Virus record (IMG/VR): IMGVR_UViG_3300017762_000094 | Span: 1 to 21,762 of that record | Strand: one strand, 5' to 3' | Origin: a virus | DNA: 21,762 nt | Part shown: in pieces, positions 3,932 to 18,885 of the stretch | Layout: the number at the start of each line of letters is the position of its first letter | How positions within the stretch are numbered: position 1 is the first letter of the stretch | The notes under the pieces: generated by a model | The model's database searches: none | Told to the model about the DNA's origin: nothing | Seen by the model: only the letters and a program-made list of their open reading frames with translations | Made by a program: the position numbers and the translations under genes

Positions 3932-4336
3932 ATGACTTCGTTTCAATCCAATCTTCTTCGACGTATCTCTTCTAAGAAAGGTCGCAAGCAAAACGGATTC
4001 ACCCTCATTGAATTGATGGTGGTCGTTGCAATCGTTGGCATCCTGTCGGCTGTCGGTTTGCCTGAGTTGACCAAAGCACAAGACAAAGCAAAGGACAACG
4101 TCGCTGTAGCTACTCTCACTAACGCTGCTAAAGAATGTGCTCTGTCACTCATCCTCAATGGTGATGACACTGACTACATCACTGATGAAACTGCCGGATC
4201 TGAAACTGGTTGGGCAGCACAGGGTGTTACTGGCACCTGTGATGCTGATGAAGTCCTAACAGTTGAATCTGAGACTGAAGCTGAGTGGACTATCACATTC
4301 GTTGGCTCCACTCCTGGCACAGCAGTAAAGAGTTGA
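3932..4336 (+). CDS. Type IV prepilin-like protein (PilA/GspG-like)
   Basis: A 134-residue protein with a complete class-III (type IV pilin) signal: a basic leader of 22 residues (RRISSKKGRKQNG), cleavage after G22, then F23-T-L-I-E27-L, with the conserved Glu at mature position 5 and a hydrophobic helix MVVVAIVGILSAVGLPEL. The methylation and cleavage site GFTLIE is the substrate of the cellular prepilin peptidase (PilD). The mature protein would be 112 residues, small for a major pilin, with two cysteines (C69 and C103) that could form the pilin disulfide. The segment AKECA after the helix resembles, from memory, marine picocyanobacterial pilins, so a host origin is likely (inference). The gene has its own promoter and is followed after one base by a second pilin-like gene. 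A role in the phage particle itself is less likely but not excluded. Confidence 0.85.
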   Translation: MTSFQSNLLRRISSKKGRKQNGFTLIELMVVVAIVGILSAVGLPELTKAQDKAKDNVAVATLTNAAKECALSLILNGDDTDYITDETAGSETGWAAQGVTGTCDADEVLTVESETEAEWTITFVGSTPGTAVKS

Positions 4337-5082: not shown

Positions 5083-5107
5083 CACCCCCTGTTACCTATG
5101 TTATAAT
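5079..5107 (+). promoter_or_regulatory. Consensus sigma70 promoter (TTGACA-17-TATAAT)
   Basis: TTGACA (5079-5084), a 17-base spacer and TATAAT (5102-5107): both hexamers are perfect matches to the bacterial housekeeping consensus. The -10 box sits in the loop of the hairpin at 5087-5123 and overlaps a T4-type late motif at 5105-5112, so host sigma and phage late sigma could both initiate here. The -35 box overlaps the end of the preceding small gene. Confidence 0.85.
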
Positions 5108-5118
5108 AAATAGGTAAA
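5099..5118 (+). repeat. 20-bp promoter repeat, copy 1
   Basis: The 20 bases TGTTATAATAAATAGGTAAA are identical to 9591-9610. Each copy contains TATAAT overlapping ATAAATA and lies 12 bases upstream of a start codon. Confidence 0.9.
5105..5112 (+). promoter_or_regulatory. T4-type late promoter motif AATAAATA
   Basis: AATAAATA differs by one base from the T4 late consensus TATAAATA recognised by the gp55-class sigma factor. It ends 18 bases before the ATG at 5131, within the 17-21 base spacing seen for the other copies in this window. It sits in the loop of the hairpin at 5087-5123. Confidence 0.6.
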
Positions 5119-6351: not shown

Positions 6352-7299
6352 ATGAACTTCAGAGAGTTTAGTAAGAATTTAACAGAAGGACCTAAGTACG
6401 ATGACGAAAGGGGTCGTGTAAATAAAGGGAGTTCAGTAAGACAGGGTGATAAACTTCCTATGAAGAACCACAAGCCTATGCAGAGAAAGGCATCGGGCGA
6501 TCCATCTGGTAGTGACCATAAAGTAAGAACAAAAGACGGCAGAAAGAATACAATCACATTGGATAAGAAGCACCCTGCAGTCAAAGGTGCTGTGTCTCGT
6601 AATCAGGCATATGGTGGTGAGAGTGAGCAACAATATAACCCTCTCAAGTATCGTAAAATCAAACAGGAGCTTAGAGACAAAGGTGGGCAGATCAAAGTAC
6701 CTGGCAAACCACCTTATAAGTCTGCTGATAATAATTACACAGTGATCAGAGGCAAAGACGCTTATGATAACTGGAAGCCCGACTCCGCAGATATGGATGC
6801 AGTCGAGAAGTTAAAAAAGAAGAACTTAGAGAAAGCTTATAAAAAAGATGCCAAAGATTACCCTAAAATTGAGGAACAAACAATGAATTTTACAGAGTGG
6901 CAAGATTCACTTTGTTCGCCACTTTATGAGACGGACGAAAACCCCAAGTGTCCTCCTGGTTATAAGTGGAATAAGAAACAGATGAGCTGTGTTCCCAAGA
7001 CAGAGAAAGATGACGTCAGTAAGAATAACAGCAAGGATAGACACCCCGGTAATGGACCCGGTTACCACACTATTGGTTCTCACGGAATGAACGGTGCCCC
7101 TTATGCTTATGAGGAGCCTGCAGCATCAGATTCTGTTTCAGAATCTCACGATTATGATAAGGAAGATGAAGACGAAAAGAAGTTCAAAAAGGATGATGCC
7201 AAAATGAAGTATGGTAAGGAGGGCAAGCCTTCATCACTGCGCCCTGGTGAAGTTCGTAAATATAACAAAGAAACAGGTAAGTGGGAGAGTAACAAGTAA
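6352..7299 (+). CDS. Hydrophilic protein with capsid-targeting-like N-terminus
   Basis: A 315-residue, strongly charged, low-hydrophobicity protein that looks largely disordered. The N-terminus M-N-F-R-E-F-S-K-N-L-T-E-G fits a capsid-targeting peptide ending in an LTE site for the gp21 prohead protease. A second similar start, MNFTEW, occurs at residue 178 (base 6883) behind a GAGGA ribosome-binding site, so an internal 138-residue product or a fusion of two units is possible. Residues 200-213 hold a C-x12-C motif (CPPGYKWNKKQMSC, then VPK) that recurs in the nucleotidyltransferase at 18882. The C-terminal part is an acidic/basic polyampholyte. It has its own late promoter and its stop overlaps the next start (TAATG). 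It is probably a head-internal or other virion protein; no enzymatic domain is visible. Confidence 0.75.
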   Translation: MNFREFSKNLTEGPKYDDERGRVNKGSSVRQGDKLPMKNHKPMQRKASGDPSGSDHKVRTKDGRKNTITLDKKHPAVKGAVSRNQAYGGESEQQYNPLKYRKIKQELRDKGGQIKVPGKPPYKSADNNYTVIRGKDAYDNWKPDSADMDAVEKLKKKNLEKAYKKDAKDYPKIEEQTMNFTEWQDSLCSPLYETDENPKCPPGYKWNKKQMSCVPKTEKDDVSKNNSKDRHPGNGPGYHTIGSHGMNGAPYAYEEPAASDSVSESHDYDKEDEDEKKFKKDDAKMKYGKEGKPSSLRPGEVRKYNKETGKWESNK

Positions 7300-9587
7300 T
7301 GAAGAGTTTCTCAACTTACATTGCAGAACGCAAGGGCGAGAAAGCTCATCGTGATGCTGTAGCAATGGGTCTTCAGTACAAAGGCTTTGGTTATTGGGCA
7401 GATCCCCAGACAGGTGAAGCAAAGTATAAGACTGTGAACGATAACCTCGTTCCTGTTGAAGGCGATGTGGAGTCAGATCTCTATAAGGGTGATGACGTCG
7501 AAGGAGATCCTGCTGCCTCAGGTGGTGGACAGGGACAGATGGCTGTGCCTGGTGGTGCCGCTGCCGGTGCTTTACCTCCTGTAGTTGGAGATGGAAGTGG
7601 GTTAGGTGGCCCTGCTGATGGTATGGATGCTCAGGCACCTAAGAACTCTGGTTGGGAGGCAGGTCCAGAAGGTGACACGTGTGTTGGTGGACAGAAACCT
7701 GGTGAGATTGCTAAGGACGTGTTTGTTGGTAAGACAAATTATGTGAATTGGACTGCTGGTCCTGAAGGTTCCAATGCAATGACAATGGAGCTCGGTGAGA
7801 TGAGGAGATGGATCACCGAGGGTACATTTACAAAAGAACTTAGAAGAAAGCAAGCAGCAGACCAAAAGATTCGTGATATTGAAGATGGAGTAAAAAGAAG
7901 TGCACCAGATGATGAAACTGCGGGCAAAATCAAACGAATGATTGCCAGAGGTGAATTGGATGCAAGTAAGATGAAGGCAGCTGGATTTGTGGCTCCAAAA
8001 ACAGAACCACAATTCTCACCTTCTGTTGCTCCTGGTCCTCACACTGATGATGAAAGTGGTGGGATGGTGAGCGCTCCAAAGATGATGCAGCGTAGACCTG
8101 AAACAGTTCCTCCAGAACCAACAGGTCCAGAACAAGGTCCTAAACGACCACTCAATCGTCCTGGCGCTGGCACAATGATGCGTCGTGCAATGGGTGCACA
8201 AAAAAATGATGGTGATGTATGGGCAGGTGACATTCAACCAGCAAGAGATGCAGTCCAGAAAGCTAAAGAGGGCGGTAATGATGTCGCTTTAGGGAACCAG
8301 ATTGCTCAGATGATGGCAATCAGAAACAATGATGAAGATAAAGGAACAGGACTTGATGCCACATTCAATCAGGATGAGCAAAAAAGAGTTGAAATGTTCA
8401 AAAAGATCCTCAGATTGCCTGCTGCACTGAAGGATGGAGAGGCAGTCAAGGGGTTGAATGAAGCAATCAAAGGACTCATCAAAAATCCAGACTTTGACTT
8501 AGATCAGGTTGGTGCAGACGATGATGAGGATTCTGATTCTTATTTGGATGAGGGTGCATTTGGTTCTGTGTTTGACGCTGGTGATGCAGTCATCAAGAAA
8601 GGTCAGTTGGGTCCTAAGGAGATCCAAGCTCTTTATGCAATGAGGGACTCACCTTACTTCCCTGATCTTATCAATGCAAGGTTTGATGGTGTGTTCAAAC
8701 ATCAGTCATCAGAATATAATAATCCTCTTCAGAAACCCTCTCGCGCAAGAGGACAGGATGGACAGGCAGCAAACGACTATTGGGATCCCCAAGATCAATC
8801 TGAATGGGAAGATAAGTATCCCAGTGCTGCTGGAACTTATGCGATGTCCAAAGCAAAGGGTGGACCTTTGTATCAGATGTGGGATGAGTTGACTCCTGAA
8901 GCACAAGAGAAAGCAAAGCGTCAGTTCTGGGAAGCAAGAGGGCAACTTCATCAGGCAGGCATTTCACATAACGATATGCACGATGGAAACATTTTTGTTG
9001 ATGAAGAAGGAAATGTTCAGATTATTGACTTAGGACTCGCTAATGACAATCCATTGTCCGCTCTTATGGAAGGAATGGGTGGAATGAATTTTGAAGAGGG
9101 TGAGGATTATCAACTTGGTAATTATATGGGTGGTTCAGGAGCTCCTGAATCCCTGAGACAAAGAATGTTAGATAATCTTGAAGGTGTTATAGAAATGATT
9201 CAGGATCAGTGGTCTCTAGATGGTGCTGATTATGATGATTATGATGAGGATGAAGATTACTCAGCTAAAATGTCTGACGGTACTGAGATGATAGACAGAA
9301 TGAGACAAGGGCAGATCAGAATGCAACCTGATTCATTAGAATTGATGGAAACATATCTACCTCTACTTCAGAATAAAGACACTGTGATGTCTCTTATCAA
9401 GAGACTTTATCAGAACATGGGTGTGGAAGATGACGAAGAAGATTCCAGTGAGGTTGGTCAGATGTTACAATCTATTAAAAAACCTGAGATTGGTGGATTC
9501 AGTAGTGCACTTGACAGACTAAGAGGATTGGGAGTAAATACAACTCGGATGGATAAAGTCAAACAAGCACTTGATATGGATGACTAA
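7299..9587 (+). CDS. Large protein with kinase domain; candidate injected head protein
   Basis: A 762-residue multidomain protein. Residues 1-11 (MKSFSTYIAER) closely match the T4 capsid-targeting sequence, with IAE as the likely gp21 cut. Residues 24-53 (GLQYKGFGYW, DPQTGE, TVNDNLV) form a small module shared with the HNH protein at 9886. Residues 70-310 are low-complexity Gly/Pro/Ala and charged linker with another possible protease site (ITEG, 172-175). Residues 417-580 are a protein-kinase-like fold: glycine loop GAFGSV (419-424), VIKK with candidate ATP lysine K433, catalytic loop HNDMHDGN (557-564; D559 and N564), and DLG (577-579) for metal binding. The key residues are intact, so activity is plausible. 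The region after 600 is acidic and helical. The start overlaps the previous stop by one base. It is likely packaged and injected to phosphorylate a host target (inference). Confidence 0.85.
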   Translation: MKSFSTYIAERKGEKAHRDAVAMGLQYKGFGYWADPQTGEAKYKTVNDNLVPVEGDVESDLYKGDDVEGDPAASGGGQGQMAVPGGAAAGALPPVVGDGSGLGGPADGMDAQAPKNSGWEAGPEGDTCVGGQKPGEIAKDVFVGKTNYVNWTAGPEGSNAMTMELGEMRRWITEGTFTKELRRKQAADQKIRDIEDGVKRSAPDDETAGKIKRMIARGELDASKMKAAGFVAPKTEPQFSPSVAPGPHTDDESGGMVSAPKMMQRRPETVPPEPTGPEQGPKRPLNRPGAGTMMRRAMGAQKNDGDVWAGDIQPARDAVQKAKEGGNDVALGNQIAQMMAIRNNDEDKGTGLDATFNQDEQKRVEMFKKILRLPAALKDGEAVKGLNEAIKGLIKNPDFDLDQVGADDDEDSDSYLDEGAFGSVFDAGDAVIKKGQLGPKEIQALYAMRDSPYFPDLINARFDGVFKHQSSEYNNPLQKPSRARGQDGQAANDYWDPQDQSEWEDKYPSAAGTYAMSKAKGGPLYQMWDELTPEAQEKAKRQFWEARGQLHQAGISHNDMHDGNIFVDEEGNVQIIDLGLANDNPLSALMEGMGGMNFEEGEDYQLGNYMGGSGAPESLRQRMLDNLEGVIEMIQDQWSLDGADYDDYDEDEDYSAKMSDGTEMIDRMRQGQIRMQPDSLELMETYLPLLQNKDTVMSLIKRLYQNMGVEDDEEDSSEVGQMLQSIKKPEIGGFSSALDRLRGLGVNTTRMDKVKQALDMDD

Positions 9588-9599
9588 ATGTGTTATAAT
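9571..9599 (+). promoter_or_regulatory. Sigma70-type promoter (TTGATA-17-TATAAT)
   Basis: TTGATA (9571-9576), a 17-base spacer and TATAAT (9594-9599). The -35 box lies inside the last codons of the kinase gene. Its -10 region is part of the 20-bp repeat shared with the promoter at 5079-5107. Confidence 0.75.
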
Positions 9600-9610
9600 A
9601 AATAGGTAAA
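9591..9610 (+). repeat. 20-bp promoter repeat, copy 2
   Basis: Identical to 5099-5118. This copy lacks the left hairpin arm present at the first site, so only the promoter core is conserved. Confidence 0.9.
9597..9604 (+). promoter_or_regulatory. T4-type late promoter motif AATAAATA
   Basis: AATAAATA overlaps the sigma70 -10 box and ends 18 bases before the ATG at 9623. An AGAGGA ribosome-binding site lies between them (9613-9618). Confidence 0.6.
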
Positions 9611-9622
9611 GAAGAGGAATCT

Positions 9623-9859
9623 ATGAAGAACTTAAACGACTTTATTTCAGAAGAAGATAAGAAGAAAGAAGGCATCAAGCCTGAAAAGAGTAATAATCGT
9701 GGAGCTGACGATAAGAAATATGTTCGTCTGATGGAGAAGTATAAGAGAGCTCGTCGTGGTGATAAGGATGAAGCTAACAAGATTCTGAAGCAGGCGTTTA
9801 CCTTGGCAAAAGATGGTGATGTTTCTAAGCAGGCAATCACAGCAGGCGCTTATATTTGA
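9623..9859 (+). CDS. Small basic candidate internal head protein
   Basis: A 78-residue Lys-rich protein. The N-terminus MKNLNDFISEED matches the capsid-targeting pattern, with ISE as the probable gp21 cleavage site. Removal of the first 10 residues would leave a basic helical protein of about 68 residues (YVRLMEKYKRARRGDKDEAN). Size, charge and leader resemble the T4 internal proteins IPI-IPIII, small basic proteins packaged with DNA and injected, one of which (IPI) blocks a host restriction system. No catalytic motif is visible. It has a good AGAGGA ribosome-binding site and its own dual early/late promoter, so it can be expressed independently of the kinase gene. Confidence 0.75.
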   Translation: MKNLNDFISEEDKKKEGIKPEKSNNRGADDKKYVRLMEKYKRARRGDKDEANKILKQAFTLAKDGDVSKQAITAGAYI

Positions 9860-9860
9860 A

Positions 9861-9867
9861 CTAAATA
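9861..9867 (+). promoter_or_regulatory. Late-promoter variant CTAAATA
   Basis: CTAAATA ends 18 bases before the ATG at 9886, the same spacing as the ATAAATA sites. It begins a module, CTAAATA-nn-AAAAAAGG-k-TATT-n-GA, repeated before the nucleotidylyltransferase at 15771-15793. Confidence 0.45.
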
Positions 9868-9885: not shown

Positions 9886-12165
9886 ATGTCACGCTGGAGT
9901 GTTTGGAGTAGGGGATTAGAAGATAAGCCAAGGTTTCTTAGTAACTTTGTAAAAGAGGCTTTAGACACAGGCAACCCATCTGTTGGTTCTTCTCCTGCTG
10001 AGAGAGCAAGGCAATTAGGACTTCAATCTGACGGAAGTGGTGGTTATATCGATCCTGAGACAGGACAAAAAGTTGCTGCCACAGTCAACGGTGAGTTAGT
10101 GTTCTATGACAACAGAGGACAGGGCGGTGGAGCAGTTTCTGACGGTTCAGGAGGTGCTGAATTAGCAAATGCTCAACCGACCTGGCAAGATCCTGCCACT
10201 GGAATGGCGATCACACCACCGTCTCGTCCAGAGTCTCCTGAAGAACAGATGGCAGTACCAGATCCAATTCCTGCCTCTGCTCCTGCTGGTTATGATTCGT
10301 TTATGAATCAACAAAGGATGAGAGCTTATGCTCAGAAGAATGCAAATAATATGCAGAACAATGTGGATCAGGCTGCCGCAACACCACATGCTGCTGGAAC
10401 TGTTCAGGGTATCAATCCTATTGGTCCTGATGGCAATGTTATGGGTGGTTCTGATATTGAAGGAGTCCAAGAAGGATTAGGTGACAATAAGGAGTTGAGA
10501 GATAAATCTGGAATTTTACCGAAACCAGGTAAAACCTTTCAACAGATGCGTCAAGAGTTACAAAGATCACAAGGCGAACAAGGCCCATTTACCCCGCAAC
10601 AAGATCTCCAAACAAGAATCGATACTCGTTTGTCAGATAAGGGCGGAATTCAAGATCAGGCAGAAGTTTCCAAAAAAAGAGAACAGATGTTGAAGCCACT
10701 ACAGGCTTTGGCAAATCAAGAGGGTACAGATCCCAGAGTTATGCACAGACTGACAAGTCTTGGTTCCAGATTATATAAGGATGAGATTGGTGGAAGGAAA
10801 GATAAAAAATTGAATCAAATGAATGATGAAATTATTGATGGTGTAATTCAAAATGGTGATAAAGTAAAAGAAGTATTTGCTCCTGATCCAGAAACAGGAC
10901 TGCCTAATGTTCAAGCGATTGCACAACACTTAGAAGAAACAAAGGAATTTCCAGACACTCCCATCGAAGCAAGTAAAGCTTTATGGAAATCGATTCCACC
11001 AGAAATGAGAAGTAATTTTGGTGGGCAAGGCAAGAAAGGTTTTGATGCTTTCCACGATTGGGTTTGTCGTGATGGAAAGTGTGCAATGTCTGGTGCTTGG
11101 ATGCATCCTGATTTCATCAACGAAGATCATCAAATCCCTCACTCAACTACGAGAAATCCAGGACTTTCTGATGAGGATCGCGATTACATCAAATCTACAA
11201 AAAATCTTTGGGCAATTCATAAGTCATTAAATCAAGTGATGGGTGAAAAAGAGAAAGGCCAAACAATTGATGACATCACATCAGAATATGGAGGCGATAA
11301 AAGAATTGAAGGATTGCAAGATTATCTGTTCTCTTTGAATAAAGAAAGAGAAGAAATTCATGGTAATCTACCTAAAATGCTTGAAGCTTCATTACTTGAT
11401 AGTGACGATGATGGAAAATTCTTGAAGGAAGGTGTAGATATGGACGGCGTTGATGGTGCTATTGAGATGGGACAACATCGACAAGAAACCATCATGCAAG
11501 ACATCATGGATGCTTTCAAATCTAGATTTGATCCAGATGACTTGATTGGAAATAGAAAGGTTCCTGAAGAATCAAAAGCCAAAAAGGCAAAACTTCAGAA
11601 AGCCAAAAAGGTAATTGAATCCATCAAAGGTAAAGGTGGAATTGAACCTTTATTCAGGGCATTGGGAATTCCAACAACTTTTAGAGCTGACTCACAAAGA
11701 GGTGGATCATTCACTGGAATGGCACCAATTCTTCGCGGGGTTATGGGACAAATTGCGGGACAACCAAAAGAGAAACAGAGAGAGATTATCAAACAATGGA
11801 GTGAGATGCTTTCTGCCAGCAACAAGAGAGCTGGATCTAAGTGGGATGAAATTCATGGTGATGACACACTTGCAGGATTAGACAAGGACGGAAGACTTGC
11901 AAAAGAGTTAGAATATAAGAAAGAAGCCGCTCGTCATGTTGCTCAACAGGCACAAGAAATGGGATTCCTTGATATGGATTCTCTTGAGGACGGAACTGAT
12001 AAGAAAGGACTCCTTGAACTCCTTAATAGAGATACCCTTTATGAACAAAATGAAGAATCCATGATTAATTTCCAGGATGATTTCGACCTCAGAGAATTAC
12101 TTGAACTTCTTATGGGATTGATGGGTGATGAAGGAGAACAAGAGTTGACAGATACACCTTTCTAG
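9886..12165 (+). CDS. Large HNH-nuclease-domain protein; candidate packaged protein
   Basis: A 759-residue multidomain protein. The first ATG is followed by RFLSNFVKEA at residues 16-25, resembling a capsid-targeting peptide displaced by about 15 residues, with VKE as a possible gp21 site. Residues 45-73 (GLQSDGSGGYIDPETGQ, TVNGELV) match the N-terminal module of the kinase protein. A long Gln/Pro/Gly linker follows. Residues 357-368 (DTPI...ALWK) begin a core shared with the HNH protein at 13109. An HNH domain lies at 394-450: C394-x4-C399, SGAW, E413-D414-H415-Q-I-P, N440-LWAIH445 and N449, the expected metal and catalytic residues. The C-terminus is helical and acidic. The large context argues against a homing endonuclease. 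A SPPY DNA methyltransferase follows directly. A DNA-cutting role is inferred from the motif. Confidence 0.85.
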   Translation: MSRWSVWSRGLEDKPRFLSNFVKEALDTGNPSVGSSPAERARQLGLQSDGSGGYIDPETGQKVAATVNGELVFYDNRGQGGGAVSDGSGGAELANAQPTWQDPATGMAITPPSRPESPEEQMAVPDPIPASAPAGYDSFMNQQRMRAYAQKNANNMQNNVDQAAATPHAAGTVQGINPIGPDGNVMGGSDIEGVQEGLGDNKELRDKSGILPKPGKTFQQMRQELQRSQGEQGPFTPQQDLQTRIDTRLSDKGGIQDQAEVSKKREQMLKPLQALANQEGTDPRVMHRLTSLGSRLYKDEIGGRKDKKLNQMNDEIIDGVIQNGDKVKEVFAPDPETGLPNVQAIAQHLEETKEFPDTPIEASKALWKSIPPEMRSNFGGQGKKGFDAFHDWVCRDGKCAMSGAWMHPDFINEDHQIPHSTTRNPGLSDEDRDYIKSTKNLWAIHKSLNQVMGEKEKGQTIDDITSEYGGDKRIEGLQDYLFSLNKEREEIHGNLPKMLEASLLDSDDDGKFLKEGVDMDGVDGAIEMGQHRQETIMQDIMDAFKSRFDPDDLIGNRKVPEESKAKKAKLQKAKKVIESIKGKGGIEPLFRALGIPTTFRADSQRGGSFTGMAPILRGVMGQIAGQPKEKQREIIKQWSEMLSASNKRAGSKWDEIHGDDTLAGLDKDGRLAKELEYKKEAARHVAQQAQEMGFLDMDSLEDGTDKKGLLELLNRDTLYEQNEESMINFQDDFDLRELLELLMGLMGDEGEQELTDTPF

Positions 12166-12173
12166 CTTATAAT
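12145..12173 (+). promoter_or_regulatory. Consensus sigma70 promoter of methyltransferase 1
   Basis: TTGACA (12145-12150), a 17-base spacer and TATAAT (12168-12173): both hexamers are perfect. The -35 box is inside the end of the HNH gene. There is no ATAAATA late motif here; AATAAAGG occurs instead. This implies early transcription by the host polymerase. Confidence 0.85.
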
Positions 12174-12183
12174 AAAGGAGTAA
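12167..12183 (+). repeat. 17-bp methyltransferase leader repeat, copy 1
   Basis: TTATAATAAAGGAGTAA is identical to 14879-14895. It carries the -10 box and a GGAG (12177-12180) lying 17 bases before the ATG, rather far for a standard Shine-Dalgarno site. Confidence 0.9.
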
Positions 12184-12197
12184 ACACATCTATAACT

Positions 12198-13079
12198 ATG
12201 CTCGACATTAACAAAGTCCATCTGATGTCCAACATCGATGGCATGGCTGCCATGGATGCAGAATCGGTGGATCTTGTCGTTACATCACCTCCTTATGACA
12301 ACCTTCGTTCTTACAATGATTCGTCATCCTGGAACTTTGAGATGTTTAAGCAGGTTGCTGATGGATGTATGAGGGTCCTCAAACCAGGTGGTGTCATTGC
12401 CTGGAACGTGGCTGATGCTGTCGTTCAGGATATGCATGGTAAGAAGTCTGGTTCCTCTAAGACTGGAACCTCTTATCGTCAATGCATTTATTTCCAAGAT
12501 GGCGGAATGAACTTTCATGATGAAATTGTTTATCAGAAGCATGCTCCACGATTTGCTTCTGGTGTCAAATCTCTTCGTTATTCTGATGTTACTGAATATG
12601 TGTTCATTATGTCTAAAGGACGTCCTAACATCATCAACCTGATTCGTGACAAGCCCAACAAAGGAGCTGGTAAGACATTTAAGCGTGATGGTGGACGTAA
12701 CGTTGATGGATCACGTAACCGTGCTGGATCTGATGCTAAGACTGGTGTCATTCATGAGTTTGGTGTTCGTGAGAACATCTGGCGTTATGTGACATCCTTT
12801 GGTGCTGGACAGAATGATAAGAGAGCTTATGAACATCCTGCTCTGATGCCAATGAACCTGGCTCTGGATCTCATCAAGTCTTATTCTAATGAAGGTTCTC
12901 TTGTCTTAGATCCATTCATGGGTTCTGGAACCACAGCTCGTATGGCTCACTCAGTTGGACGTAATTACATTGGATTTGAAATTGATCCAACCTATCATCA
13001 ACTCTGTGAAACAATTACATCTGATGCTATCAATAAGATGGCAGAAGAGGCTGCTGTTGATTTGACATCCTTGATGTGA
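12198..13079 (+). CDS. DNA methyltransferase, beta-class (SPPY)
   Basis: A 293-residue S-adenosylmethionine-dependent DNA amino-methyltransferase. Motif IV TSPPY (29-33) comes near the N-terminus and motif I LDPFMGSGTT (237-246) near the C-terminus, the circularly permuted beta-class order. The SPPY form methylates N4 of cytosine or N6 of adenine; sequence alone does not decide which. VLKPGGVIAWN (60-70) and IGFEID (about 257-262) are the expected flanking strands. The central region (150-205) probably includes target recognition. Length is normal. It sits between two HNH-domain genes with a strong consensus promoter of its own, so it could modify phage DNA against host restriction or against the neighbouring nucleases (inference). 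Confidence 0.9.
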   Translation: MLDINKVHLMSNIDGMAAMDAESVDLVVTSPPYDNLRSYNDSSSWNFEMFKQVADGCMRVLKPGGVIAWNVADAVVQDMHGKKSGSSKTGTSYRQCIYFQDGGMNFHDEIVYQKHAPRFASGVKSLRYSDVTEYVFIMSKGRPNIINLIRDKPNKGAGKTFKRDGGRNVDGSRNRAGSDAKTGVIHEFGVRENIWRYVTSFGAGQNDKRAYEHPALMPMNLALDLIKSYSNEGSLVLDPFMGSGTTARMAHSVGRNYIGFEIDPTYHQLCETITSDAINKMAEEAAVDLTSLM

Positions 13080-13082
13080 TAA

Positions 13083-13090
13083 AATAAATA
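13083..13090 (+). promoter_or_regulatory. T4-type late promoter motif AATAAATA
   Basis: AATAAATA ends 18 bases before the ATG at 13109, followed by AAAGAAAG. The same AATAAATAAAAGAAAG string occurs near 19784-19799. A TTGACA at 13062-13067 lies 17 bases before TAAATA, so a weak early promoter is possible too. Confidence 0.6.
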
Positions 13091-13108
13091 AAAGAAAGAG
13101 AGAATCTA

Positions 13109-14884
13109 ATGTTTAGCGGTTGGTTGAAGAAAGAATCAGGAATTGAAGAACCTACTGGGTTAGAAGCCGCTAAGCAAAAGATTCTTGGTGAGGCAGAAGA
13201 AACAGTTGGTCCTCTTGTAAGACGAGGAACAAATCCACAGAGAGAGGGTCAACCAGACCTCAACAAAGTGATCTCTGATGTTAGGGGAACAAAACCGCCG
13301 ACACCACAACCCGCGGCATCACCGGAGATCGAAAGACAATCTGGACAACCAGCACAAAATCTCGATGATGCAAATGAAATTCATCAACAAGTCGGTTCTG
13401 GTGTTCTCAGTGAACGTCAACAGTTAATTGGTGACTTTAGATCAAAGTTGAGAGAATCTTTTGATCTCGAAGATGATATGGTTGATACTCAAATGAGACC
13501 CTTAAGGGATTCAATCAGAAATATAATGGCAACAAGAAATCAAGACAGTGGTGGTTCAGAGGATGAAATGAGAGATCAATTTATTTCATTGATGGCGCTC
13601 GCCAATACTTACGATGGTAGAATTCGTCATGGTGAAGGTAAGAGGACAATGTTTTATGAGGATGCACAAAGATTAATGGATCCGGTTGTACAACAATCCT
13701 TACTTGAAGGATATGGAGATGGATCACCAGAACAAATTGAAAAGTTTGTTAATTCAAGGAAAGTGGTCGATACTCCGATGGCAGATGTTAATGCATTGTG
13801 GAAAGTTCTCCCAGATAAGTTTAAACAGGCTCTTGGGTCGGGCAGTCTTGGAAATTCAATTAAATTACTGCAAGACGATGGCACGATTAAAAACGAAGAT
13901 GCAAGAAAATTACACTTTGGTGGAGATGACAACAGAGTTACTAATGGATCAAACTTAAGAAAGAAACTTTTACTTAAGTTATTCCTTGATCAAGCTGGTC
14001 GTGATGGTTATACAGGCAATGAATTAGATCCCAGATACATGGAATTGGAACATGTTCGTGGTGTTAATAATTTAATGGATGGAGAAGTTGCTCCAACTTT
14101 AGAACAAGTGATGCAACGAGAAAATTTAAGAAATTGGCTTTGGATTGGAACTGGAGTTAACAATGAGAAGTCCGACCTTGATATGAAAAAATTTCTTGAA
14201 AACACTCAAGAGAAACATAGTAAAATGGCCAAGGAAGATTACATTGATCTCGAAGCTTCAGACAAAACATTCCAAGAGAGACAGTCTGGGATGTCATCAC
14301 TCTTAGAAGATTTTATTCAAAACAACGAATTTACTGAAAATGCAACTCCAGATGCAATCCAAGCATTGTTTGATAATGAACTGAATGAAAGTGAAGCGAT
14401 GCATCGGAACGGAATCAAAAAAACACCAGTCCAACTTGGAGACAAAATGAGAAAAGCTTTGGGTATGGTAAAAGATCGTAAACTAACTCGGTCTCAACTC
14501 AAAACTCAAAAAGAATTGTTTAGACCTCTAATAATGAATGCTCTCTCACTTCCCCCAGAGGAAAGATCAGGAATGATTGAAAAATATAATCAATTATTTC
14601 ACTCTGCAGCTGATAGAACAGCTGAACTCAGTTCAATGGGTCCTGAAGGTTTAACTCAAGATGGAGCAATAGAAGGATCTGGGAAGAGTAAAGGAAAGTT
14701 GAATGAAAAAGGAACATGGGAAAAAATGTTCTATAAATCTTTGGCTGATTCCGGGTTAATTACTGCCGAAACACTTAAAAAACATCTACAATCTAAAGAG
14801 TTTGATAAGTTTAATAAATTGCTGTTTGAAGGAATTTATGAAGAACAAGACTGGGTTGACAAAAGAGAGTTCATTCTGTTATAA
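13109..14884 (+). CDS. HNH-domain protein, paralogue of the 759-residue protein
   Basis: A 591-residue soluble protein. The N-terminus (MFSGWLKKESGIEEPTG) is not a clear capsid-targeting peptide, although IEE could be a gp21 site. A Pro/Gln-rich linker (60-100) is followed by helices. Residues 221-245 (DTPM...NALWKVLPDKFKQALG) align with 357-380 of the HNH protein at 9886 (DTPI...KALWKSIPPEMRSNFG), so the two are related beyond the nuclease motif. The HNH-like domain at 301-356 reads YTGNELDPRYMELEH315V, N342-WLWIGTGVN351-NEKSD; the cysteine pair of the other copy is absent. The C-terminal 200 residues are helical and Lys/Glu-rich. A late promoter motif precedes it and an NPPF methyltransferase follows. 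Nuclease activity is inferred from motif only. Confidence 0.8.
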   Translation: MFSGWLKKESGIEEPTGLEAAKQKILGEAEETVGPLVRRGTNPQREGQPDLNKVISDVRGTKPPTPQPAASPEIERQSGQPAQNLDDANEIHQQVGSGVLSERQQLIGDFRSKLRESFDLEDDMVDTQMRPLRDSIRNIMATRNQDSGGSEDEMRDQFISLMALANTYDGRIRHGEGKRTMFYEDAQRLMDPVVQQSLLEGYGDGSPEQIEKFVNSRKVVDTPMADVNALWKVLPDKFKQALGSGSLGNSIKLLQDDGTIKNEDARKLHFGGDDNRVTNGSNLRKKLLLKLFLDQAGRDGYTGNELDPRYMELEHVRGVNNLMDGEVAPTLEQVMQRENLRNWLWIGTGVNNEKSDLDMKKFLENTQEKHSKMAKEDYIDLEASDKTFQERQSGMSSLLEDFIQNNEFTENATPDAIQALFDNELNESEAMHRNGIKKTPVQLGDKMRKALGMVKDRKLTRSQLKTQKELFRPLIMNALSLPPEERSGMIEKYNQLFHSAADRTAELSSMGPEGLTQDGAIEGSGKSKGKLNEKGTWEKMFYKSLADSGLITAETLKKHLQSKEFDKFNKLLFEGIYEEQDWVDKREFILL

Positions 14885-14885
14885 T
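14856..14885 (+). promoter_or_regulatory. Consensus sigma70 promoter of methyltransferase 2
   Basis: TTGACA (14856-14861), an 18-base spacer and TATAAT (14880-14885), both hexamers perfect. The promoter overlaps the last codons and stop of the HNH gene. Its -10 region is the 17-bp repeat also found before the first methyltransferase. Confidence 0.8.
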
Positions 14886-14895
14886 AAAGGAGTAA
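14879..14895 (+). repeat. 17-bp methyltransferase leader repeat, copy 2
   Basis: Identical to 12167-12183. Both copies overlap or abut the stop codon of an HNH gene and precede a methyltransferase start by 12-14 bases, although the two methyltransferases belong to different classes. Confidence 0.9.
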
Positions 14896-14907
14896 CAAGC
14901 CCATAAT

Positions 14908-15774
14908 ATGTCAGATTTCTCTAAATCAATCTCTGATGCTTACTTTACGCATCCAGAGAGTGTTACATTCATTCACAGCATCTTAGCTGATGCTGGTTGG
15001 CTTGAAGGTTCTGTTCTGGAACCTTGTTGTGGCAATGGACATCTAATCAAAGGATTAGATAATGTCACAGCTTGGGATCTCAATCAATATGAGATTCCAT
15101 TGGATCGTGTTGGCAACTTCCTTGAGCAAGAGCCAGATCAGAAGTTTGATTTGGTTCTAACTAATCCTCCATTTGGATTCTTAGGTGGACTTGCCTGTGA
15201 CATCCTTAATCACGGCACTCTGTTCTCTGACAGGGTGGCAATTGTGTTACCTCAGTGTTTCCGTAAAGTTCAAAGGATTGACAGAATCAACCCTTACTTT
15301 CATCCTGTTGGTGATTACAATCTTCCTAATGAGACTTACATTCTTCCAGATGGCACTGAGAAATATGTAAGAACCTGTTTCCAAATGTGGGAACGCCGTG
15401 ATTACAAACGTAAGAAGTTTGCCAACACCTCTTATGAAGAGTTCTTCACTCAGGTGCCTTATGAAGAGGCTGAATATTATCTGAGAACACAAGGCTCAAC
15501 TGCTGGTTGCATCCTTGAGGGGCTTGCTTATCCTAAGACTGGTAAGGTTTACAATCATAACTCAGGACGTTTCATGAAAAGAGGTAAGGATGACATTCTT
15601 GCCCATGACTGGACAAAGGTCGCCAGGTTTGCTTCTGGTGCCCCATCCATTGGACTTCATGACATTGCATGGGGATTACGTTCTCCAGACATTGAATCTT
15701 ATCTGGTTCATGGAATCATGAGTGATCTTATCAGTGGTTTTTATGATGAAACTGGTGGCGTTCTGCCAATCTAA
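14908..15774 (+). CDS. DNA adenine-N6 methyltransferase-like protein (NPPF)
   Basis: A 288-residue class I methyltransferase with motif I LEPCCGNGHL (37-46) near the N-terminus, AWDLN (55-59) as the acidic residue that binds SAM, and motif IV TNPPFG (85-90). The NPPF form is characteristic of N6-adenine DNA methyltransferases. YFTHPE (12-17) resembles the N-terminal motif X. Motif order is I then IV, so the class differs from the beta-class enzyme at 12198 and the two are not recent duplicates. The C-terminal 150 residues probably carry target recognition. It follows the second HNH gene and shares a 17-bp promoter repeat with the first methyltransferase. The target sequence cannot be predicted. 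Confidence 0.85.
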   Translation: MSDFSKSISDAYFTHPESVTFIHSILADAGWLEGSVLEPCCGNGHLIKGLDNVTAWDLNQYEIPLDRVGNFLEQEPDQKFDLVLTNPPFGFLGGLACDILNHGTLFSDRVAIVLPQCFRKVQRIDRINPYFHPVGDYNLPNETYILPDGTEKYVRTCFQMWERRDYKRKKFANTSYEEFFTQVPYEEAEYYLRTQGSTAGCILEGLAYPKTGKVYNHNSGRFMKRGKDDILAHDWTKVARFASGAPSIGLHDIAWGLRSPDIESYLVHGIMSDLISGFYDETGGVLPI

Positions 15775-15777
15775 ATA
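15771..15777 (+). promoter_or_regulatory. Late-promoter variant CTAAATA
   Basis: CTAAATA overlaps the stop of the methyltransferase gene and ends 20 bases before the ATG at 15798. The following AT-AAAAAAGG-T-TATT-G-GA is nearly the same as at 9868-9885. A weak AATAA/TTATT stem (15774-15778 with 15788-15792) is possible. Confidence 0.45.
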
Positions 15778-15797: not shown

Positions 15798-16637
15798 ATG
15801 GGTTTTAGAACCTTCTACGAACAGACTGGAGGAGCTCAAGAAATTCTGGGCTCTGAAGGGCAACCAGTAAATAAAGGTGTCGTTGAGGTGTTTGGTAGAC
15901 ATAACCCACCTCATGATGGACATCTGAAGACTTTAGATAAGGCAAATGATATTGCACAGAATGAAGGTGCAGATATGTCTCTGTACACTTCCAGAAGTCA
16001 AGATCCTAAGAAGAACCCACTACCTTTCAGAGAGAAGCTTGGGTTTCTAAAAGAGTTGGCTCCTCAATATGCTGACAACTGGGATGACGATGAAGGCATT
16101 AGAACCGTCTTAGGTGCGGCAGCAAAAGCAGGACAGAAGGGTTATAAGGACTTCCACTTCGTTGGTGGGAGTGACAGGGTTGGTGCCATGGGTGATTTGC
16201 TAAGGCGTTATAATGGAAACCTTTATGACTTTGAGAACATCTATTCTCACTCTGCTGGTGAAAGAGATGAAGAGGATGAAGGTGTTGGTGGATTATCAGC
16301 ATCTAAACTGAGGAAGTTTGCTGAAGGTGGCGACTTTGAAGGATTCAGTGGAGGCATTGGTGGTGGACAGAAGATGGAACTGGCACGAAGAATGTTTGAA
16401 GCAGTCAGAAAATATGGACAGAAGAATGAAGACTGGGAAGTGGCGCCAAGATATAACAAAGAGTTTATCAGAGAGATGTATCTTGATGGACAACTTTATG
16501 AGATTGGAGACATCGTTGAGTCTCTCTCAACTGGATTGATTGGTAAGGTACATCGTTGTGGAACTAATCACCTTATCTGCGTGACAGAAGAAGGTATTAT
16601 GTTCAAGGACTTTGTTCACGACGTTCAGTTTGTATGA
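15798..16637 (+). CDS. HxGH nucleotidylyltransferase-domain protein
   Basis: A 279-residue protein with a cytidylyl/adenylyl-transferase fold (the NMN adenylyltransferase and pantetheine-phosphate adenylyltransferase superfamily). Visible are the phosphate-binding motif GRHNPPHDGH (33-42, with H39-x-x-H42), FVGGSDR (121-127), and the second signature LSASKLRKFA (166-175), equivalent to the ISxxxxR motif. The N-terminus MGFRTFYEQTGG loosely fits the capsid-targeting pattern. The last 50 residues (GQLYEIGDIVESLSTGLIGK onward) form a small beta-rich domain separate from the enzyme fold. The substrate is not determined; NMN or nicotinate mononucleotide would link it to NAD and to the ADP-ribosyltransferase-like neighbour, but that is speculation. 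The stop overlaps the next start by 4 bases. Confidence 0.85.
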   Translation: MGFRTFYEQTGGAQEILGSEGQPVNKGVVEVFGRHNPPHDGHLKTLDKANDIAQNEGADMSLYTSRSQDPKKNPLPFREKLGFLKELAPQYADNWDDDEGIRTVLGAAAKAGQKGYKDFHFVGGSDRVGAMGDLLRRYNGNLYDFENIYSHSAGERDEEDEGVGGLSASKLRKFAEGGDFEGFSGGIGGGQKMELARRMFEAVRKYGQKNEDWEVAPRYNKEFIREMYLDGQLYEIGDIVESLSTGLIGKVHRCGTNHLICVTEEGIMFKDFVHDVQFV

Positions 16638-18472
16638 TGATTGATTTTAGTAACGTATCAAGACAATTAGACGAAAACCCAAGAGTCCTTGATAATCCAC
16701 CAGGATTTGAAGATAGAATACGTCAAGGTGGCGCAGGACGACAGGGAAGAAATACTGAAGGTGATGTCATAAATTTCATGAAGGATCACATCAATCCCCA
16801 TGGAAATTACAAAGTTGCAGGTGGCAATAATATAAAAACAGATTTTTATGATGATGCTGAAACGGGAGATCCAAAAGATAATACTAATTATTCAGTCAAG
16901 ATGACTAAGAATCCCGATGTTCCTGTAAAGGTTCAACAATCAGGATTTCAAAATGGTTCTCGTGGAGCAATGAATAAGCTTCTCATTCCAGGATCACGTG
17001 ACGATGATCTTATGGGTGCGAGACTTGATACACCTGAGGGCAAACAAAAGTTCATCCAGTCAATTAGAGGTAATCCATTGATGCAAGCTTTTGTTATGAA
17101 GTTTGGTGCAAACATCCAAGGAGAGAATGGTAGGAACTTAAGCCTCAGTAACTTTAAGAATGTTTTTGCTAATGGAATGAATCAACAAGAACTCAGTCAA
17201 GAGCAACTGAGAATGTTGGAAAGGATTAATGAAGCTCAAAGGATGAAACAAAATCCTTTTATGAGAACTGAAGAAATGCAGGACATGTTTCCTGATCATT
17301 TTAAACAATTAATGACACACCTGAATGATAATAAGGCAGGAATCTTTGATCAGATGGTAAGAAAACATGATTCCAGATATCCATCTAAATCATATCAATA
17401 TGGAGATCCGTCTCCTGTAGATAAGATGATTCATGTTAGAAATAATAAAGGTACAAATGGTTTAAACGGCAAAATTGATATTAGAGATATGAGCGACGAA
17501 GAAGTTGCAGAGTCTATGAAGATGGTTGATTGGTATGGTGATGGAAACAATCTCTATCTTGCCAATCAAGAAACGGATGATATTAATAAGAGACTTCTAG
17601 ACGTATATTCTATGACTGAAGATGCAGACTCATGGGAATTACTTGCAGGAACAGGTGATAGACCACAGGGACAACGCAAAGGTGCTCAACCAGGATTGTT
17701 AAAATCAACTATGGGCATTGATGAAGAAATGTTAGATGAGGTATTTGGACCTGCTGAGTTTTCTGCTAATATTGGACCGGCGCCTCGTGGAGATATTAAG
17801 AAACATGTCATTAAAAACGTAATAAATAATATAAAAGAAGAAGTTATGAACTTCAATAAGTTGCATTTTAGTGAAACCTTAGAGCAAGAAAAAATTGCAT
17901 CTGAGAAAGCCAATATGAGTGGTGAGAAACAGAGAAACATGTCTCGCCAACAAAAACAAAAAGACATGATGGCTTCTAAGACTGGATTAGCTCAAAAGTC
18001 TAATGTGGTCTATGCTTCAGAGGATTACTTTAAGCAATTGCGTGATAATGTAGAGATGTTTAAGGCTCATGAGGAAGCTAAGTATGACTGGAGAAAAACT
18101 TTAAATGAGGGTCGCCCTCCCAAAGAAGACCCAGAAGACGAAGGAGAACATCCTTATGTCGCTGTCATGCCACATAAGGATTCTAAAGAGAAAGAAGTCA
18201 AGAAGAAGTATGAAAAGAATAAAGAGTCTGAAGACGCCGCAAAAGCCCTCATGAAATCACAAGGTATCGTAGGAGAAACCATGGAATTTGACGAACTTAT
18301 TGGAAATCTAATCGAGTCAGAGAAACCTTTTGATCCTGATGCACGCAGGAAGCAAAGAGGAGCAATGTTAAAGAAACAGGCAGAGAAAGCTCCTAAGGAC
18401 ACAAGAACAGACGCACAGAAGATGGCAGACGCCACTGGACCTCGTCCTGGTTCACGTTTCAGAGGAGACTGA
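16634..18472 (+). CDS. 612-residue virion-type protein, possible PD-(D/E)xK nuclease
   Basis: A multidomain hydrophilic protein starting at an ATGATGA overlap with the previous gene. The N-terminus (M)MIDFSNVSRQLDENP resembles a capsid-targeting leader with LDE as gp21 site. Residues 39-91 (E42 in a helix, KTD70F, NYSVK89MTK) look like a restriction-endonuclease-like core, but the usual Asp/Glu before xK is Ser87, so nuclease function is uncertain. Two internal leader-like peptides occur: MNFNKLHFSETLE at residue 405, with a late promoter motif 17 bases upstream, and MEFDELIGNLIES at residue 550, behind an AGGAG. The protein may therefore be a composite of packaged units or encode nested products. 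The C-terminus is highly charged and probably disordered (KKEVKKKYEKNKESEDAA region). It overlaps the next gene by one base. Confidence 0.75.
   Translation: MMIDFSNVSRQLDENPRVLDNPPGFEDRIRQGGAGRQGRNTEGDVINFMKDHINPHGNYKVAGGNNIKTDFYDDAETGDPKDNTNYSVKMTKNPDVPVKVQQSGFQNGSRGAMNKLLIPGSRDDDLMGARLDTPEGKQKFIQSIRGNPLMQAFVMKFGANIQGENGRNLSLSNFKNVFANGMNQQELSQEQLRMLERINEAQRMKQNPFMRTEEMQDMFPDHFKQLMTHLNDNKAGIFDQMVRKHDSRYPSKSYQYGDPSPVDKMIHVRNNKGTNGLNGKIDIRDMSDEEVAESMKMVDWYGDGNNLYLANQETDDINKRLLDVYSMTEDADSWELLAGTGDRPQGQRKGAQPGLLKSTMGIDEEMLDEVFGPAEFSANIGPAPRGDIKKHVIKNVINNIKEEVMNFNKLHFSETLEQEKIASEKANMSGEKQRNMSRQQKQKDMMASKTGLAQKSNVVYASEDYFKQLRDNVEMFKAHEEAKYDWRKTLNEGRPPKEDPEDEGEHPYVAVMPHKDSKEKEVKKKYEKNKESEDAAKALMKSQGIVGETMEFDELIGNLIESEKPFDPDARRKQRGAMLKKQAEKAPKDTRTDAQKMADATGPRPGSRFRGD
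17821..17828 (+). promoter_or_regulatory. Internal T4-type late promoter motif AATAAATA
   Basis: AATAAATA occurs inside the 612-residue gene, 17 bases before an in-frame ATG (17846) that encodes a leader-like MNF peptide and is preceded by AAGAAGAAG. The spacing matches the late motifs placed before genes in this window (17-21 bases). Chance occurrence in AT-rich coding sequence is the alternative. Confidence 0.35.
17846..18472 (+). CDS. Possible nested gene: C-terminal product of the 612-residue frame
   Basis: Same frame and stop as the gene at 16634, giving 208 residues starting M-N-F-N-K-L-H-F-S-E-T-L-E. Support comes from the leader-like N-terminus, the late motif 17 bases upstream and a purine-rich stretch (AAGAAGAAG) before the ATG. 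The product would be a highly charged helical protein comparable to small internal head proteins. Phage genes for scaffold and internal proteins do sometimes have internal starts. It is listed as a hypothesis; the longer frame is open throughout and remains the primary gene. Confidence 0.3.
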   Translation: MNFNKLHFSETLEQEKIASEKANMSGEKQRNMSRQQKQKDMMASKTGLAQKSNVVYASEDYFKQLRDNVEMFKAHEEAKYDWRKTLNEGRPPKEDPEDEGEHPYVAVMPHKDSKEKEVKKKYEKNKESEDAAKALMKSQGIVGETMEFDELIGNLIESEKPFDPDARRKQRGAMLKKQAEKAPKDTRTDAQKMADATGPRPGSRFRGD

Positions 18473-18885
18473 TGAAAACATTTGAAATGTTTATGGAGGA
18501 AGCTCCTCAAAGATTAAAGATGAAGAGGTTATATCATGGAACTGATAAGAACTCTTCAGATAGTATTGACAAGGGTGGTTATGATACTTCCAAGGGTGAG
18601 AACAAACTTGCAGGTGATGGAATCTATGCCTCTAAAAAGAGAAAGATTGCATCAGATTATGCAAACACCAGGTCAAGCGCCAGAGGTTCTACACCAAGAA
18701 CCAAAGAGTTCCTAGTCCCCAAAAATAACCTAGGCACCAAGAAAGCAAGACTCAGAGGTGGCAAGCCAGTTCCAAGTAAATCAGATAAAATTCAGAAGGT
18801 GGATCTTAACAATTATCTACTGAAGGATAAGGATGCAAATAGATTCTCCGTTTCTAGACAACCAATTATTAGAAGCAAAAAATGA
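18472..18885 (+). CDS. Small ADP-ribosyltransferase-like protein with capsid-targeting leader
   Basis: A 137-residue protein. Residues 1-11 (MKTFEMFMEEA) are an excellent match to the T4 capsid-targeting sequence MKTYQEFIAEA, with MEE as the predicted gp21 cut. The rest resembles the PARP/Tpt1-like (H-Y-E) class of ADP-ribosyltransferase folds: LYH22GT, then an S-I-x-x-x-G turn (31-35), D49-G-I-Y52-A-S with A-S-D-Y-A (60-64), and TKE79F as the candidate catalytic glutamate. These enzymes transfer ADP-ribose from NAD+ to protein or nucleic acid. T4 Alt, also packaged and injected, modifies host RNA polymerase. The domain is small but covers the main motifs. The C-terminus is basic. The start overlaps the upstream stop (TGATG) and an AGAGGAGA ribosome-binding site precedes it. 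Confidence 0.75.
   Translation: MKTFEMFMEEAPQRLKMKRLYHGTDKNSSDSIDKGGYDTSKGENKLAGDGIYASKKRKIASDYANTRSSARGSTPRTKEFLVPKNNLGTKKARLRGGKPVPSKSDKIQKVDLNNYLLKDKDANRFSVSRQPIIRSKK

Follow-up and report, generated by a model that had tools for sequence, protein, structure and literature searches.

A candidate virion-delivered restriction-modification-like system, built like a polymorphic toxin, in T4-like cyanophages

Why should a cyanophage carry two predicted nucleases, each followed directly by a DNA methyltransferase? The question is raised by IMG/VR virus record IMGVR_UViG_3300017762_000094, the whole of which (21,762 bases) is the window analyzed here, and whose gene content and gene order, common with S-CRM01, identify a T4-like cyanophage. 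Four genes on the + strand, with no gene intervening in the list of open reading frames (ORFs), form the locus: HNH1 (9886..12165; 759 amino acids, aa), composed of an N-terminal module and a variable nuclease part; MT1 (12198..13079; 293 aa), an N6/N4-type DNA methyltransferase with SPPY at 12285-12296; HNH2 (13109..14884; 591 aa), a virion-type HNH protein; and MT2 (14908..15774; 288 aa), an N6-adenine-type DNA methyltransferase with NPPF at 15163-15174. The alternation of nucleases with methyltransferases of two classes, reported in a preliminary description made from the sequence alone, is present as stated, judging by ORFs and domain matches. We propose, with a probability of roughly 0.58, that such loci encode a restriction-modification-like weapon that is delivered by the virion and has the architecture of a polymorphic toxin. 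Their anatomy and the surveys presented below favor a packaged, late-made nuclease and early-made methylases, from which we infer protection of the phage DNA.

The methylase genes carry signals of early expression. Perfect sigma70-type promoters precede MT1 (TTGACA-17-TATAAT, 12145..12173, + strand, with the -35 element inside HNH1) and MT2 (TTGACA-18-TATAAT, 14856..14885, + strand, with the -10 element overlapping the HNH2 stop codon). Three TTGACA-N16-18-TATAAT sites (12145, 14856, and 5079) occur in the window versus 0.01 expected, and the third precedes a gene encoding a DUF6267 protein. A 17-bp repeat, TTATAATAAAGGAGTAA, is found in exactly two perfect copies, at 12167..12183 and 14879..14895 (both + strand); up to three mismatches allowed, there are four matches versus 0.07 expected, the 3-mismatch copies preceding the DUF6267 gene and a small gene at 9623. 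The identical 17-bp leader and the promoters over the HNH 3' ends, as previously described, were thus borne out. Since the third promoter and the 3-mismatch repeats precede the DUF6267 and 9623 genes, promoters of the early type are not confined to methylases. Before these two genes stands TTATAATAAATAGGTAA, identical at 5101-5117 and 9593-9609, in which the early -10 element (TATAAT) overlaps a late-like ATAAATA; the methylase copies of the repeat have AAAGG in place and the late-like part lost. When the window is aligned with two related loci, L024 and L014 (surveyed loci are numbered with L), DNA similarity restarts exactly at the 12167..12183 repeat, past unlike nuclease parts.

NTAAATA is a late-promoter-like motif. 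In the window, CTAAATA lies 18 bp upstream of HNH1 (9861..9867), ATAAATA before HNH2 (13084..13090), and CTAAATA before an NMNAT-like gene (15771..15777), all on the + strand; CTAAATA is weak on its own because four occur in the window versus 2.2 expected. Across the surveyed loci, NTAAATA within 110 bp upstream was found for 23 of 47 HNH2 genes, 12 of 24 genes with the HNH1 N-terminal module (N-module), and 52 of 63 NMNAT genes, compared with 246 of 714 other genes and 4 of 102 methylase genes. Sigma70 scores of at least 10 were obtained upstream of MT2 (3/5), DamA (3/3), DamB (3/4), MT1 (22/73), and C5 methylase (0/9) genes, versus 3/47 for HNH2, 0/24 for the N-module group, and 111/714 for other genes. 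Early-type signals at methylases and late-type signals at nucleases support the earlier proposal that the methylase is made early.

Packaging of the nucleases is suggested by their N-termini. HNH1 starts with a capsid-targeting-like leader (9886..9957, + strand) ending in LSNFVKE, followed by A; the T4 gp21 protease cleaves according to the rule L/I-x-E (PMC9026906), and HNH1 has FVKE, V taking the place of the L or I of that rule. A targeting pattern modelled on the T4 leader and the gp21 rule, written after the sequences had been viewed, matched 89 of 178 N-termini in a cargo-type set (HNH2, N-module, kinase, h9623, NMNAT, and h6352 proteins), versus 3 of 372 in a background of replication, metabolic, sigma, gp61, and methylase proteins (methylases, 0/101). 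N-module proteins (19/23) and h9623 proteins (9/12) often carried the pattern, HNH2 proteins rarely (3/47); groups placed outside both counts were DUF6267 (8/25), unlabelled proteins (34/683), p16637 (1/12), NTase (0/5), h19813 (0/8), and h20380 (0/40). The four genes themselves sit within a cluster encoding proteins with capsid-targeting-like N-termini. According to the virion mass spectrometry results in PMC10665884, ORF12 of phage S-CREM2, an N-module relative of HNH1, was detected with 28 unique peptides (27.4% coverage), and the virion list also contains kinase ORF14, ORF13, ORF15, and cytidylyltransferase ORF154, without methylase ORF8 and EcoRI-like ORF11. Taken together, the targeting-like N-termini and this S-CREM2 relative speak for the previously suggested carriage of the nuclease in the virion.

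Two further observations concern virion cargo. In many marine phage contigs (L035-L090), a module reading LGLxSDGHGGWxD..G.xVAKT, a general cargo module to which we give no family name, also follows the leader of NMNAT-like proteins. The S-CREM2 gene at L007:12227-13471, near DamA, encodes a virion protein with a targeting-like leader that is annotated as an S-adenosylmethionine (SAM) hydrolase, an odd annotation next to a SAM-dependent methylase.

Assignment of the enzymes differs in security. MT1 belongs to PF01555 (N6_N4_Mtase, E 3.2e-40), and MT2 matches the PADLOC type II methyltransferase model (E 2e-16), with weak Pfam matches and the TaqI methylase as the closest solved relative at only E 0.045; both therefore match type II methylase models, and both contain SAM-binding and catalytic motifs, MT2 mainly by the PADLOC model and its NPPF motif. 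Neither HNH1 nor HNH2 matched an HNH family in Pfam, PHROGs, NCBIfam, or PADLOC, so the label HNH rests on motif and fold. The HNH2 core (13991..14170, + strand) comprises E314-H315, N342, N351, and K354, invariant in a 25-row alignment. Its AlphaFold2 model is of moderate confidence (mean pLDDT 70.8); after re-alignment against the PDB the top seven rows were Cas9 HNH domains with weak Z scores of 4.2-4.7, within residues 136-371, Foldseek returned no match at E 0.001 or less, and none of the 15 sequences listed up to E 10 in a PDB sequence search was an HNH protein. HNH1 contains an HNH-like core, C394..C399..D414-H415..N440..N449 (11065..11250, + strand), in which D414-H415, H419, N440, and N449 were recognized by eye, and H415, H419, N440, and N449 recur in L160, the sole homologue showing the core. 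Because its own structural model was unusable (pLDDT 37.9, with only two alignable sequences), the HNH1 assignment is less secure than that of HNH2; a scan for close relatives with HNH1 alone found nothing. The core (YTGLPL-like turn, D/E-H, N, N) was visible in 14 of 15 nuclease proteins examined, that of L014 being missed by a regular expression and seen by eye. The D/E-H...N...N/H arrangement of HNH (beta-beta-alpha-metal) nucleases is found for HNH2 in 25 rows and for HNH1 with L160 only. Cas9 was rejected as a name for S-CREM2 ORF12, which has no Cas9 model match and only an HNH core that is Cas9-like, as seen for HNH2.

The N-module of HNH1 (~145 aa; 9886..10320, + strand), common to S-CREM2 ORF12 and others, occurs in 12 phage records, all from Synechococcus phages and S-CREM2 included, and the nuclease part behind it varies between phages. 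The N-module protein is followed by MT1 in the window, L014, L024 (with L025 and L026), and L160, by another N6/N4 methylase in L031, and by DamA in MA01 and S-N03; DamA is the fourth gene after it in S-CREM2, and a second, HNH-bearing protein lies between it and MT1 in L164. In L024, three consecutive N6/N4 methylases occur, the last of which shares 76% identity with the only one in L031. Module proteins of S-CRM01, L033, and L034 have no nuclease part, and no methylase is present there; truncated module proteins (L028, L030, L032) were excluded from the neighbor comparison.

For HNH2, IMG/VR scans yielded 69 loci, or 70 with the window, which collapsed to 50 distinct ones, and methylases were sought with nine hidden Markov models built from seeds of this analysis. 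A methylase (MT2, MT1, MT2 plus MT1, or DamB) lies at most two genes downstream at 11 of the 50, and a C5 methylase 2 to 10 genes upstream at 10 others. In the 32 cyanophage-slot loci, a methylase comes directly after 10 of the 29 HNH2 genes with a visible neighbor and after 9 of the 327 other genes (Fisher p 1.5e-7, uncorrected for shared descent). The HNH2-MT2 block is colinear in L014 (2.4 kb, 74%) though its order relative to MT1 is reversed, and an MT2 scan returned four loci, on the same contigs as the closest HNH2 relatives, with HNH2 upstream in all four and a sigma gene between in one. In related phages, the nuclease-then-methylase order recurs with at least six methylase groups by our own grouping.

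MT1 is less closely tied to nucleases. The best 80 of its 124 matches collapse to 57 distinct loci. MT1 is preceded there by a virion nuclease or MT2 in 5, by a gp61 relative in 14, and by others in 20, and no upstream gene was called within reach in 18; in five Syn9-type phages, no HNH gene is annotated near the MT1 relative. A by-eye likeness of Syn9 gp61, encoded upstream of the MT1 relative, to a restriction enzyme was unsupported by Pfam, PADLOC, and NCBIfam and was discarded. Further methylase searches covered PF01555 in ten IMG/VR records (one match) and five phage genomes, three other families in those genomes and in five IMG/VR records, and MT2 in fourteen; they detected one C5 methylase each in S-CRM01 and S-B05, DamA in S-CREM2, and DamA with an Eco57I match in MA01, while fragments lacking a match carry no information. 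The co-occurrence envisaged in the preliminary description therefore held as linkage (10/29 versus 9/327) and failed as strict pairing, MT1 relatives occurring without a nearby HNH gene. Two fixed cognate pairs, also implied there, are not supported, given MT1 proteins 87-95% identical behind different nucleases and the incomplete HNH2 count, and the constant linkage of a type II pair was not found. By these comparisons, the predicted nuclease part and methylase are linked, yet reassort.

How they reassort is seen best in phages of the ACG-2014f group, whose genomes presumably stem from PMC5112629. Forty-five records contain the locus, four of them RefSeq copies; annotations were examined for seven records and translated nucleases for six. 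Over ~210 residues, the N-terminus of the nuclease is near-constant (C24 80% identical to US30, the rest 95% or more), and it is joined to one of five HNH C-terminal parts, those of C24 (2 of the 45 records), US36 (5), C58 (19), US57 (8), and US30 (11). Identity among the compared representatives is 96-99% in the left flank and 83-98% in the right one, and DNA similarity ends at codon ~209-227 of the nuclease. The right breakpoint falls at Eco57a for C24/US36, at Eco57b for C24/C58 and US36/C58, at DamA for C58/US57, US57/US30, and C24/US57, and 33-37 bp before DamA for C58/US30. Behind the nuclease stand DamA in US57, Eco57b-DamA in C58, Eco57a-Eco57b-DamA in C24, and N6N4-Eco57a-Eco57b-DamA in US36; with breakpoints at or near methylase starts, the methylase stacks are therefore nested. 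For each of the five C-terminal parts, a promoter-like site scoring 10-11.1 of 12 lies in or at the end of the nuclease gene, ahead of the first gene that follows; for genes one position later the scores are lower (Eco57a in US36, 7.1; Eco57b in C24, 8.1).

A methylase lies directly downstream in four of the five ACG-2014f alleles, and MT1 is common to several nucleases. The C-terminal parts of US57 and MA01 share 63% identity and both stand directly before DamA, and the MA01 N-terminal module is different. Scanning with the C58 nuclease part gave no match and with the US57 part only an ACG-2014f genome, and tblastn with the US36 part gave no match outside ACG-2014f; with the US30 part, tblastn matched outside ACG-2014f only S-CREM2, S-H34, S-N03, and the MA01 group. 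The C58-Eco57b and US36-N6N4 pairings were accordingly observed within ACG-2014f only. A constant N-terminus with an exchanged C-terminal part, a feature of polymorphic toxins, is thus found both in the five ACG-2014f alleles and in the N-module group. In US7 (L245), the nuclease ORF is split by a 95-bp tandem duplication, with the neighboring methylase genes annotated as usual.

These data are consistent with the following course of infection. Judging by their promoters, the methyltransferases would be made early from strong sigma70-type promoters and mark replicating phage DNA. The HNH nucleases, to judge by promoters and N-termini, would be made late with a capsid-targeting leader and enter the prohead, where a gp21-type protease would trim the leader. 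The nuclease, whose virion presence is published for the relative S-CREM2 ORF12 only, would be ejected with the methylated genome and cut unmethylated DNA, either the host chromosome or that of a co-infecting or rival phage, sparing the phage genome. Over evolution, as the sequence comparisons show, the packaging N-terminus stays constant while the C-terminal part of the nuclease is swapped, and methylase genes accumulate behind the nuclease like orphan immunity genes.

Several points weigh against this proposal. Nucleases and methylases are here predicted activities only. Early-type promoters also precede DUF6267 (7/25), h9623 (7/12), and sigma (8/11) genes, and some methylase promoters score low (L024 MT1, 7.1; L014 MT2, 9; L160 MT1, 9.1). 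The strict targeting motif is present in only 3 of 47 HNH2 proteins, and the S-CREM2 authors warn of possible co-purification (PMC10665884). No methylase was detected with the nine models in the examined DNA of 29 of the 50 distinct HNH2 loci. MT1 proteins of the 87-95% identical set follow unlike HNH proteins (L160, L164, L166) and, in L165, MT2; the HNH2 genes of L165 and L166 are 85% alike at the DNA level, the former followed by MT2 and MT1 and the latter by MT1 only. The US30 nuclease is followed by a 169-aa protein, PD-(D/E)XK-like by eye, which is not a methylase, with DamA after it, and the seven ACG-2014f records examined all have another Dam-type gene upstream of the nuclease, whatever the allele. 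In S-B68, the module protein precedes a DruA-like gene, and that genome gave no match to the four methylase families or MT2. The DruA-like gene (L006:8793-9863; PF14236, 2e-10) possibly represents a different kind of partner, and the C-terminal part of the S-B68 module protein is 30% identical to an L011 protein that is PD-(D/E)XK-like in looks.

A more specific form of the virion-delivered weapon, which we regard as tentative and somewhat less probable than not, is that cyanophage virions carry a polymorphic-toxin system whose immunity genes are the methyltransferases, with captures nesting into stacks and siblings in dominance order. As successive captures of a nuclease part with a methylase leave a nested stack, US36 (four methylases behind the nuclease) should then dominate C24, C24 should dominate C58, and C58 should dominate US57; in the window, HNH1-MT1 and HNH2-MT2 would be two weapon-immunity sets per virion.

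Of the competing explanations, the one that survives best, unlikely as we consider it, is a hot spot of unrelated morons, in which the methylases are anti-restriction genes with their own early promoters, recombined beside a virion cargo gene, and the HNH protein has some other role at infection. It would account for the MT1 relatives elsewhere in Syn9-type phages, for the near-identical MT1 proteins behind unlike nucleases, and for the 8 HNH2 slot loci out of 32 in which a sigma gene comes next, 7 of them without a methylase. It sits poorly with the recurrence of the methylase groups directly behind two kinds of virion nuclease, which is so rare behind other genes, and with the joint change of nuclease part and adjacent gene in ACG-2014f, with breakpoints at methylase starts. 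Quite improbable, in our view, are non-specific virion DNases that break down host DNA early and are indifferent to methylation, the methylases marking phage DNA for other uses such as packaging, repair, or gene control: one MT1 type behind several HNH parts and the 29 HNH2 loci without a detected methylase would fit, whereas a housekeeping DNase would not be expected to vary so greatly in sequence around one conserved HNH core or to have its alleles swapped between siblings, and an ejected non-specific DNase would presumably endanger its own genome. That the HNH proteins are self-moving homing endonucleases, despite their HNH core and a small inserted ORF annotated as an HNH endonuclease in US17, was rejected as extremely improbable given their size of about 570-980 aa, packaging-like N-termini in most, a position conserved across many phages, a relative detected in virions, and exchange of the C-terminal part alone.

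The surroundings of the locus, partly under our own labels, comprise RecA-like, gp41-like, and MazG-like genes, then the DUF6267 gene, a kinase-like gene, and HNH1; after MT2 follow NMNAT-like, ADP-ribosyltransferase-like, and nucleotidyltransferase-like genes, the last two by our own reading. The kinase-like neighbor (7299..9587, + strand), predicted cargo with a targeting-like N-terminus, has ORF14 as its S-CREM2 counterpart, and the NMNAT/cytidylyltransferase-like cargo candidate lies at 15798..16637 (+ strand), S-CREM2 cytidylyltransferase ORF154 being listed in virions. A 611-aa protein (16637-18472) contains near its N-terminus a stretch that is PD-(D/E)XK-like by eye and had no family match in domain library searches; the short protein encoded at 18472-18885 has a clear targeting leader, MKTFEMFMEE followed by A, and, by eye, a YHGT motif as in ADP-ribosyltransferases. 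Further upstream, at 3932-4336, a small protein has a type IV prepilin-like N-terminus (GFTLIELMVVVAIVGILS), unexpected for a cyanophage.

If the proposed weapon is real, phages use restriction-modification offensively: the particle carries the restriction half, and the modification half is produced early inside the cell. The "orphan" methylases of T4-like cyanophages would then be easier to explain, phage heads would be linked to polymorphic toxins, and the ACG-2014f isolate collection would become a ready test of competition among close phage relatives. In the literature searched, including the available text of PMC5512222 and PMC7824862, we found no description of a packaged nuclease-methylase pairing, and the words "methyl", "HNH", and "nuclease" are absent from the main text of PMC5112629, on wild-cyanophage genomes. 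Novelty rests on the combination of a packaged polymorphic nuclease with a methylase stack.

In type II restriction-modification systems, a nuclease gene stands beside a DNA methylase gene, as it does here; unlike them, the nucleases of these phages have a packaging-like leader and late signals, the methylases have early promoters, and the nucleases match no defence-library model. Contact-dependent growth inhibition (CDI) and Rhs polymorphic toxins combine a constant N-terminus, an exchanged C-terminal toxin part, and stacked orphan immunity genes, and the cyanophage loci resemble them in all three respects (the stacked genes being immunity-like), yet delivery would be by the phage head and the putative immunity would act on DNA, not on the toxin. 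The T4 internal head proteins and Alt, which carry a capsid-targeting sequence cut by gp21, are described in PMC9026906 in terms that match a short N-terminal leader ending x-E, clustered cargo genes, and expected ejection with the DNA, whereas the proposed cargo of the cyanophage loci is a large polymorphic nuclease, with methylases encoded alongside. The polyvalent proteins of phages and plasmids (Iyer 2017, PMC5512222) are likewise packaged conflict proteins of several domains, which in some include a methylase or nuclease, and in the available text T4-like phages are named for ADP-ribosyltransferase (ART) proteins only; polyvalent proteins are single polypeptides, in contrast to the separate early methylase and packaged nuclease suggested here. 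A further parallel is the "CRISPR-Cas9 nuclease" ORF12 of S-CREM2 (PMC10665884), alike in its N-module, its HNH core, and a methylase gene four genes downstream, which was published as an acquired Cas9 and which we read as an allele of a packaged HNH family.

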